A stretch of 64,000 nucleotides of DNA, from assembly GCA_002842985.1 (NCBI GenBank), contig PHEQ01000001.1:1-64000 (forward strand), given 5' to 3'. The notes under the pieces were generated by a model. The model was not told the DNA's origin. It worked only from the letters and a program-made list of their open reading frames with translations, and made no database searches. The DNA is from Alphaproteobacteria bacterium HGW-Alphaproteobacteria-1 (lineage in GTDB: Bacteria > Pseudomonadota > Alphaproteobacteria > Rhodobacterales > Rhodobacteraceae). Both the position numbers and the translations under genes were made by a program. Of the stretch, positions 25,733 to 28,133 are shown piece after piece. Each line of letters opens with the position of its first letter. Positions within the stretch are counted from its first letter, which is position 1.

Positions 25733-26194
25733 GGCCGCTCCGTCGGGTTGCGTCTCGGCGCGCAAATGATCGCAGCGCGGCCGAAAGGGCAAGCGGAAAT
25801 CCGGGGACGGGGCAGGTGTGGTCTGAAGTGATCGTTGGATTGAAGCACCTGCTCGGAATCAAGGCCGAAGGCCGCCGCGCATCGGTCATGCCGGAGGCAT
25901 GCTTTCAGCATGACCCGCCCCCCGGCACGGCGATTTGGCTGCAACCTGTGCAACGATCAGGTGTTTTTCGGATCAGGATGGGTAAAGTGCTGCCAAATTC
26001 ATGTTGGATCGCCGCATCGCGGCCCGCCAATGCGCGGCTTCTCTAACGACCGCTCAAGGCCCGAATCCCGACATGCCCTCGGCGCGCCCGATCGGAAATA
26101 CCCCCTTCGGGCGGACATCAAGCCAAGCTTGAGGTTTACACCCGTCAAACCCGAAGGCACTCTCCGGGCAAACACAGCTTCCAGAAGGCCCCCC

Positions 26195-27154
26195 ATGACC
26201 GACAGCACCAGTGTCAACCCCACCGTCTCTGATCTGGCCTTTACCCGGCCCGATGTGCGCGGCACCATCGCCGAGCCCGCCTATGCCGGCGCGCTCAGCT
26301 TCATGCGGCGCCGCTATTCCCGCGATCTGTCGGGCGCCGATGTCGCGGTGATGGGCGTGCCGTTCGACATGTCCGTATCGGGGCGCTCGGGCACCCGTCT
26401 TGGCCCGCGCGCGATTCGTGCGGCGTCGTCGCATATCGCCTGGTCCGCGCCCTGGCCCTGGGCCTTCGATCCGTTCGAGCGGCTGTCGGTGGTGGATTAC
26501 GGCGATTGCTTCTTCGATCACGGCTATCCCACAGCGGTTCCCGGCACCATCGCGCAGGCCGCGCGCGATGTGCTGGCCACCGACACGGCCCTCCTGACGC
26601 TGGGGGGGGATCACTTCATCACCTGGCCACTGCTCAAGGCCCATGCCGAAAAACACGGCCCCCTTGCCCTCATCCAGATCGACGCCCATTCCGACACATG
26701 GGAGGACGAGCCGGGCCGCATCGACCATGGCACGATGCTCTGGCACGCGGTGCGCGAGGGGCTGGTGGTGCCGGACGCCTCGGTGCAGGTGGGCATCCGC
26801 ACCCATAATCCCGACCCTCTGGGCGTGCATGTGATCGACGCGCGTGAGGTGCATCTGAGCGGCCCCGTGGCGGTGGCCCAAAAGGTGCGCACGATCGTGG
26901 GGGACCGGCCCTGTTACCTGACCTTCGACATCGACGCGCTCGATCCTTCCGCCGCACCCGGCACCGGCACGCCGGTGATCGGCGGGCTCTCGACCTTTCA
27001 GGCGCAGGAGGTCCTGCGCGGGCTGGAGGGAATTGCCTTGAAGGGGATGGACGTGGTCGAGGTGGCGCCTGCCTACGACATCTCGGAGATCACCGCGCTC
27101 GCGGCGGCAACGCTCGCCTGCGACATGCTGGCGCTCTATGCGGCTGGCAGGTAG
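26195..27154 (+). CDS. speB: Agmatinase / ureohydrolase family
   Basis: GDHFITWPLLKA; IQIDAHSDTWED; TFDIDALDPSAAPGTGTPVIGGLS. Confidence 0.92.
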   Translation: MTDSTSVNPTVSDLAFTRPDVRGTIAEPAYAGALSFMRRRYSRDLSGADVAVMGVPFDMSVSGRSGTRLGPRAIRAASSHIAWSAPWPWAFDPFERLSVVDYGDCFFDHGYPTAVPGTIAQAARDVLATDTALLTLGGDHFITWPLLKAHAEKHGPLALIQIDAHSDTWEDEPGRIDHGTMLWHAVREGLVVPDASVQVGIRTHNPDPLGVHVIDAREVHLSGPVAVAQKVRTIVGDRPCYLTFDIDALDPSAAPGTGTPVIGGLSTFQAQEVLRGLEGIALKGMDVVEVAPAYDISEITALAAATLACDMLALYAAGR

Positions 27155-27160
27155 CCCCTT

Positions 27161-27192
27161 GAAAAGAAAGGGCCCCGGGCGATGCCGGGGCC
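27161..27192 (-). terminator. Rho-independent terminator of the candidate sRNA
   Basis: Hairpin GGCCCCGG/CCGGGGCC (27171-27192) followed on the minus strand by CTTTCTTTTC. Confidence 0.75.
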
Positions 27193-27230
27193 AGTCCAAC
27201 AGGGAGGTTCACGTATAACCGTAAGTGAAC
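27161..27230 (-). ncRNA. Candidate sRNA: 5' hairpin, CCUCCC-containing linker, Rho-independent terminator
   Basis: Minus strand GTTCACTTACGGTTATACGTGAAC-CTCCCTGTTGGACT-GGCCCCGG(CATCGC)CCGGGGCC-CTTTCTTTTC. Predicted TSS from -10 TAATAT and an FNR-like box. Confidence 0.65.
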
Positions 27231-27236
27231 GATACC

Positions 27237-27278
27237 ATATTAATCCTGAAACGCAGATACGACTTTGATCTTGGTCAA
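27237..27278 (-). promoter_or_regulatory. Class II FNR-type promoter driving the candidate sRNA
   Basis: Box TTGAC-CAAG-ATCAA on the minus strand (27265-27278); -10 TAATAT (27237-27242). Box centre is 41.5 nt from predicted TSS 27230. Confidence 0.6.
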
Positions 27279-27291
27279 GGTGGCGTGACTA

Positions 27292-27978
27292 TTAAACCAC
27301 AAGTCGATAGCCGCCCGATTCCGTGACCAGCAACCGCGCATTGCCGGGATCGGGCTCGATCTTCTGGCGCAACCTGTAGATGTGCGTCTCCAGCGTATGT
27401 GTCGTCACCCCGGCATTGTAGCCCCAGACCTCGTGCAGGAGCACGTCGCGCGCCACCACGCCCTCGGGCGAGCGATAGAGGAATTTCAGGATGTTGGTTT
27501 CCTTTTCGGTCAGGCGCACCTTGCGCTCGTCGTCGGTCACGAGCATCTTCATCGCGGGCTTGAACGTGTACGGCCCAAGCTGGAACACGGCATCTTCGGA
27601 TTGCTCGTGCTGGCGCAACTGAGCGCGGATACGCGCGAGCAACACGGGGAACTTGAACGGCTTGGTGATATAGTCGTTCGCGCCCGCATCGAGCCCCAGG
27701 ATCGTGTCCGCGTCGCCGTCGTGGCCCGTGAGCATCAGGATGGGCGACTTGACCCCCTGCTTGCGCATGAGCCGACACAGCTCTCGTCCGTCGGTATCGG
27801 GCAGGCCCACGTCGAGGATCACGAGGTCATAGATCATGTCCTTGATCTTCGCCATCGCCTGCGCGCCCGAGGCCGCCTCGAACACGTCGAAATCCTCGGT
27901 CATCACGAGTTGCTCGCCAAGGGCTTCGCGCAGGTCGTCATCATCATCGACGAGCAGTATTTTCTTTACTTGTGCCAT
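27292..27978 (-). CDS. OmpR/PhoB-type two-component response regulator
   Basis: ILLVDDDDDLREAL; LVILDVGLPDTDGRELCR; LTGHDGDADTILGLDAGANDYITKPF; winged-helix TLETHIYRLRQKIEPDP. Confidence 0.95.
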   Translation of the reverse strand: MAQVKKILLVDDDDDLREALGEQLVMTEDFDVFEAASGAQAMAKIKDMIYDLVILDVGLPDTDGRELCRLMRKQGVKSPILMLTGHDGDADTILGLDAGANDYITKPFKFPVLLARIRAQLRQHEQSEDAVFQLGPYTFKPAMKMLVTDDERKVRLTEKETNILKFLYRSPEGVVARDVLLHEVWGYNAGVTTHTLETHIYRLRQKIEPDPGNARLLVTESGGYRLVV

Positions 27979-28133
27979 GCTGCTATCCTCTTCCTGTCGG
28001 ACAACATGCGCAAGTCACGCCGTTCGGACAAGTGTGACAACATGTGCCTCACGCCCAAGTGTTGCAGCGAGAGCGTTTCTTTCAATTCGTTACAACATAC
28101 GCTAACCCAGAGCCATCAGGTCGGAGAAAATGC

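Follow-up and report, generated by a model that had tools for sequence, protein, structure and literature searches.

At the center of the locus is a short minus-strand element enclosed by two convergent genes, a response regulator whose stop codon lies at 27292 and an agmatinase whose stop codon lies at 27154, within the 64,000-nucleotide stretch analyzed here (the window). The element begins ∼60 nt past the regulator stop codon, on the same strand as the regulator, and comprises an FNR-type box, a −10 element, a 5′ hairpin, an exposed linker and an intrinsic terminator (Table 1). The letters and coordinates of these parts, and of the flanking stop codons, are all as given in the original prediction, which was made from this DNA alone.

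Table 1. Features of the SorX locus and of the second copy in the window
Feature	Position	Strand	Basis
FNR-type box TTGACCAAGATCAA	27265..27278, centre 27271.5	−	read from letters
−10 element TAATAT	27237..27242	−	read from letters
Predicted transcription start, G, 41.5 nt from box centre	27230	−	geometry only
SorX orthologue, ∼70 nt	27161..27230	−	Rfam RF02784 and R1 covariance model
5′ hairpin GTTCAC...GTGAAC	27207..27230	−	
Linker CCTCCCTGTTGGACT, conserved, unpaired, presumed seed/anti-Shine-Dalgarno	27193..27207	−	
Intrinsic terminator: 8-bp GC stem (27192-27171) and T-rich tail	27161..27192	−	
OmpR-family response regulator, parent gene, RSP_0847 orthologue	27292..27978	−	
RpoH-type promoter CTTG-N18-CGCATGT before the response regulator	28004..28032	−	
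Agmatinase	25910..27154	+	
Second sRNA copy, SorY position, after LysR gene	44405..44460	+	Rfam SorX, 47.5 bits

The upstream part of the element has the pattern of a class II FNR promoter, with TTGA-N6-TCAA centered at −41.5 relative to the predicted start, a −10 and no −35. The −10 element agrees with TATAAT at only four of six positions and a sigma-70 scan found no −35/−10 promoter at the element, as is expected of a promoter that would be activator dependent. Across the 4.0 Mb genome, TTGAYN4RTCAA occurs 26 times, against one occurrence of a reversed control. The predicted 70-nt transcript folds 2.6 standard deviations below shuffled sequences (z −2.6) and its linker is mostly unpaired; together with the exact recurrence of the linker 15-mer across the family, this supports the conserved, mostly unpaired CCUCCC linker proposed at the outset. 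The terminator is the sole one found in 700 bp, where 0.7 would be expected by chance, and its retention at the SorX loci of relatives is therefore the better evidence for it.

Assignment to SorX and range of the family

In a search of all Rfam families, the best match to the element is SorX (RF02784; 38.7 bits, E 2e-7). This does not reach the gathering cut-off of 46.6 bits, which is a database threshold and not a biological property. SorY (RF02651) follows with 26.1 bits against a cut-off of 111, and the context of this copy at 27.2 kb is also not that of SorY. The layout of RF02784 is present, with the core CCUCCCUGUUGGA, a 5′ hairpin directly before it and a terminator directly after. The R1 covariance model, for which 26 orthologues from other genera and no Roseovarius sequences were used, scores the window copy at 54.5 bits (E 4.7e-12). 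The window regulator is 97% identical to that of Roseovarius autotrophicus and, over 227 amino acids, 87% identical to RSP_0847 of R. sphaeroides, from whose 3′ UTR SorX is cut by RNase E (PMC6238624). In genome G052, which matches R. sphaeroides 2.4.1, SorX scores 88.8 bits and SorY 115 bits, both at the published chromosome coordinates (PMC6238624). Judged by its place after the same regulator and by its match to the R1 model, and despite the sub-threshold Rfam score, the minus-strand element is orthologous to the base-pairing sRNA SorX, of which it is the Roseovarius version, and belongs neither to a new family nor to CcsR/alpha-r14.

Of the 150 genera in the family, 135 have the linker 15-mer without mismatch, usually twice, as do 39 of the 40 genomes from the genus; it was found in none of 141 genomes from other families of the class. 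The SorX motif lies within 500 nt of the regulator stop codon in 72 of 80 named relatives. The response regulator precedes 35 of the 90 copies examined, the SorX copies; most others are of the SorY type, behind a LysR gene and often with a CTTG...CTAAAT promoter, while a few sit in other contexts. The second copy in the window, 17 kb from the first, has the context of the SorY-type loci, with a LysR gene (43356-44249) before it and gnd on the other strand beyond; its SorX label in Rfam reflects the very strict SorY threshold of 111 bits. Loci L030, L147, L149 and L188 hold copies of a third kind, ..TTCCTCCCTGTTGGACTGGCCGCGCC-like in sequence and preceded by neither the regulator nor a LysR gene.

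The FNR-type box in related bacteria

About 100 related bacteria were compared, and 107 distinct SorX loci were scored for a box, defined as TTGA-N6-TCAA matched at seven or more of its eight positions, between −95 and −72 relative to the linker. Fifty of the 107 loci carry one there, while the remaining 223 positions give 10 such matches; among sRNA copies from other contexts, a box at the matching place occurs in only 1 of 55. From the box centre to the first base of the first helix of the RNA, the distance is 43.5 nt in 23 loci and 44.5 nt in six. Combined with class II geometry, this spacing would place the start 2–3 nt before the first helix of SorX, near the 5′ end that RNase E makes in R. 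sphaeroides. Both box and linker are conserved in related genomes.

R. autotrophicus and two other Roseovarius relatives have exactly the same box, and the interval between box and −10 is unchanged; the −10 reads TAATnT in the nearest box-keeping Roseovarius relatives and TAACTT in one more distant. Across the Roseovarius subclade, there is very little change in the box, in the nucleotides behind it or in TAATnT, while the hairpin varies with compensation. Over the regulator tree, two rows of which have misplaced starts, boxed loci are widely spread, implying many gains or losses among sequences that are related and not independent; a single gain is unsupported, as the tree needs many changes. 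About half of the SorX loci have no box, several of them because the sRNA starts directly past the stop codon, such that a box would fall in coding sequence. Loss of the box through loss of FnrL is ruled out: every one of the ten relatives tested has FnrL, even where SorX has no box. The window genome also encodes FnrL, with its N-terminal cysteines, and a box lies just upstream of the gene.

In two genomes (L165; L310/L311), the regulator is followed by a tandem pair of SorX copies. The first of the pair lacks a box and is closed by a terminator of its own; the second has a perfect box, TTGACCCAGATCAA or TTGACCTCGATCAA, at approximately the class II distance, so that, from this arrangement, the second copy most likely depends on a promoter of its own. 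In our view, no other single observation argues as strongly as these tandem copies for a promoter function of the box.

Published binding data bear on the same sRNA. Using ChIP-seq, Imam et al. (2014) located FnrL at putative promoters of two R. sphaeroides sRNAs, RSs0019 and RSs2461, for which an effect of FnrL was not measurable and which were left uncharacterised (PMC4263372); RSs2461 was later named SorX (PMC5036791). In the R. sphaeroides sequence (L191:1349-1390), TTGCGTGAGATCAA lies at −109, where it overlaps the stop codon of RSP_0847, and TATAAA follows at the class II spacing; this is likely to be the site of the published peak at RSs2461. The start at genome position 2,598,196 that class II geometry gives for TTGCGTGAGATCAA is a prediction, as the published pre-SorX 5′ end lies elsewhere, at 2,598,182. 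Considered together, the fixed spacing of the box, its scarcity in other contexts and the FnrL ChIP-seq data support the sRNA with an FNR-type class II promoter that had originally been proposed.

In 85 of 95 SorX sequences, the first four loop bases pair perfectly with the four bases just before the stem, as CCCG/CGGG, CCCC/GGGG, ACCG/CGGU or CCCU/AGGG. When loops are re-dealt among loci, the count averages 49, with a maximum of 62 in 1000 trials; shuffled flanks give 13, and for the opposite loop end the count is 0. Each sequence was scored for pairing on its own because MAFFT could not register the first strand, its linker varying by 0–3 nt. The stem is mostly 6–8 bp, the first linker mostly 1–2 nt and the second 4 nt, which fits a classic H-type pseudoknot. 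Judged from this covariation, the SorX 5′ end in most relatives is an H-type pseudoknot, and such a fold provides a structural rationale for the constant 5′ end. SorX of R. sphaeroides has CCC/GGG in the corresponding place. The window copy pairs weakly (ATCG/CGGU at best), and for this reason the pseudoknot is not needed for what we propose for that copy. It is absent from the Rfam SorX model, and no mention of a SorX pseudoknot was found in the literature searched, the original description of SorX lying outside that search.

Two proposed routes to one RNA

SorX need not depend on FNR alone, since it is also the 3′ UTR of the regulator mRNA, and this mRNA has a conserved RpoH-type promoter. 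The element CTTG-N18-CRCAWST lies ∼55 nt before the regulator start in 42 of 82 genomes, where shuffled sequences give 0.26, and R. sphaeroides also has an RpoH-type element before the regulator. A co-transcript of regulator and SorX driven by RpoHI/II has been published, in agreement with the conserved element (PMC3320616). The reading of the element as FNR controlled had missed this upstream promoter, the 3′ UTR origin and the second copy in the window; its FNR-type promoter stands.

An RpoH-type promoter and an FNR box at one locus amount to two inputs, oxidative stress and low oxygen, written together. The best explanation of the Roseovarius locus, and one we consider probable, is that SorX can be made by two routes. 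In one, the response-regulator mRNA would be transcribed from the RpoH-type promoter and its 3′ end cut by RNase E, as in R. sphaeroides. In the other, an FNR-family activator, most likely FnrL, would drive a primary transcript from the class II promoter of SorX itself at low oxygen. Both routes would yield nearly the same RNA, with a structured 5′ end, an exposed CCUCCCUGUUGGACU linker and a terminator, and the linker would pair with the Shine-Dalgarno regions of target mRNAs and block the translation starts of transporters. For this organism, we infer that the element is transcribed, that FnrL activates it and that it starts at 27230, as well as which region pairs and with which targets. The case is evenly balanced for a wider statement, in which SorX throughout the Rhodobacteraceae would have two inputs and a nearly constant 5′ end marked by the pseudoknot, reached by RpoH transcription and RNase E cleavage or by FnrL-driven initiation, with inputs often gained or lost and split between tandem copies in two genomes.

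Other readings share parts of this evidence. If the window SorX were a 3′ UTR product of the regulator mRNA only, with the box bound but silent or of minor effect, it would follow the known biogenesis in R. sphaeroides, and the conserved RpoH-type promoter and the half of relatives without a box, several because the sRNA directly follows the stop codon, would fit as well. We consider this quite unlikely, given that the spacing from box to RNA 5′ end is fixed in many genera, that second tandem copies have a box although they lie behind a terminator, and that the Roseovarius clade keeps the box while the hairpin changes. A promoter could also answer to another Crp/Fnr member, of the Dnr/NnrR or CrpK type, with nitric oxide or something else as the signal. 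TTGA-N6-TCAA-like sites are common to these regulators, CrpK and FnrL overlap in R. sphaeroides (PMC4263372), and some loci carry TTGCGCCAGATCAA as their box. Against this stand the occupancy of RSs2461 by FnrL, measured in R. sphaeroides (PMC4263372), and the presence of FnrL in every genome tested for it, which make another member rather unlikely; we infer that FnrL, and not a Dnr-type relative, activates the window SorX.

The CCUCCC anti-Shine-Dalgarno linker and the score under the Rfam SorX cut-off might instead point to a new family of FNR-controlled sRNAs or to the anti-Shine-Dalgarno sRNAs of CcsR/alpha-r14, a kinship that the original prediction had raised as a possibility. Synteny, motif and covariance model all place the element in SorX, and the Rfam search returned no match to CcsR or alpha-r14 up to E 5; orthology refutes this reading, and we give it almost no credence. 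What survives of the earlier interpretation is the class II promoter of FNR type and the CCUCCC linker.

Targets and comparison with known systems

The known R. sphaeroides targets are both transporter genes, potA for SorX, where repression has been shown, and takP for SorY. One potA homologue of this genome has ACAGGGAG before a possible GTG start, and its duplex of −16 kcal/mol is not clearly above background. In 61 genomes, AACAGGGAGG-N-ATG occurs 180 times and the permuted ACAAGGGAGG-N-ATG 80 times, part of these being antisense to the sRNAs themselves. The class of target is not discriminated by these sets because both are rich in transporter substrate-binding proteins. The best duplex among the start regions of the window is with the regulator's own (27978-28010, minus strand; −23.5 kcal/mol). 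Conserved feedback on the parent regulator is ruled out, as relatives pair there no more than shuffled seeds do.

An indolepyruvate ferredoxin oxidoreductase-like gene (39769-43188, minus strand) starts behind AACAGGGAGG at 43188-43204; AACAGGGAGG is fully complementary to CCTCCCTGTT of SorX and SorY, making this gene a candidate target. None of the other SorX loci examined showed an agmatinase gene beside the sRNA. SorX of R. sphaeroides controls polyamine uptake, and in R. capsulatus FnrL activates the agmatinase gene speB1 (PMC4634722); the agmatinase-SorX neighborhood may or may not be meaningful.

SorX is a standard example of an oxidative-stress sRNA derived from a 3′ UTR. If the two-route explanation is true, the conserved FNR-type promoter at the mature 5′ end makes SorX oxygen responsive too, and a single RNA may act in oxidative stress as well as in oxygen shortage. 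It would also explain an FnrL ChIP-seq peak orphaned since 2014, and would show a 3′ UTR sRNA gaining and losing a promoter of its own without change to the RNA.

Among known systems, the alphaproteobacterial sRNAs CcsR1-4 and alpha-r14 share a C-rich anti-Shine-Dalgarno loop or linker with the window element, but differ in context and structure and gave no covariance-model match. E. coli FnrS is an FNR-activated trans-acting sRNA, as is proposed here for SorX, a comparison also drawn in PMC4263372, but it has no sequence relation to SorX and is not associated with a 3′ UTR. SorY (RSs1543, RF02651), the type to which the second copy at 44405-44460 belongs, has the CCUCCCUGUUGGACU core, the same type of terminator and its own promoter, but follows a LysR gene and has an RpoH-type CTTG...CTAAAT promoter and another 5′ hairpin. 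The closest counterpart is R. sphaeroides SorX (RSs2461, RF02784), which shares the orthologous OmpR-type regulator upstream, the CCUCCCUGUUGGA core, a structured 5′ domain, the terminator and the RpoH-type promoter before the regulator. In comparison with it, the 5′ hairpin of the window copy has diverged and its pseudoknot is weak. In R. sphaeroides, a site similar to the FNR box lies further upstream and overlaps the regulator stop codon, whereas the window has a near-perfect box and a −10 at class II distance to the 5′ end of the RNA.
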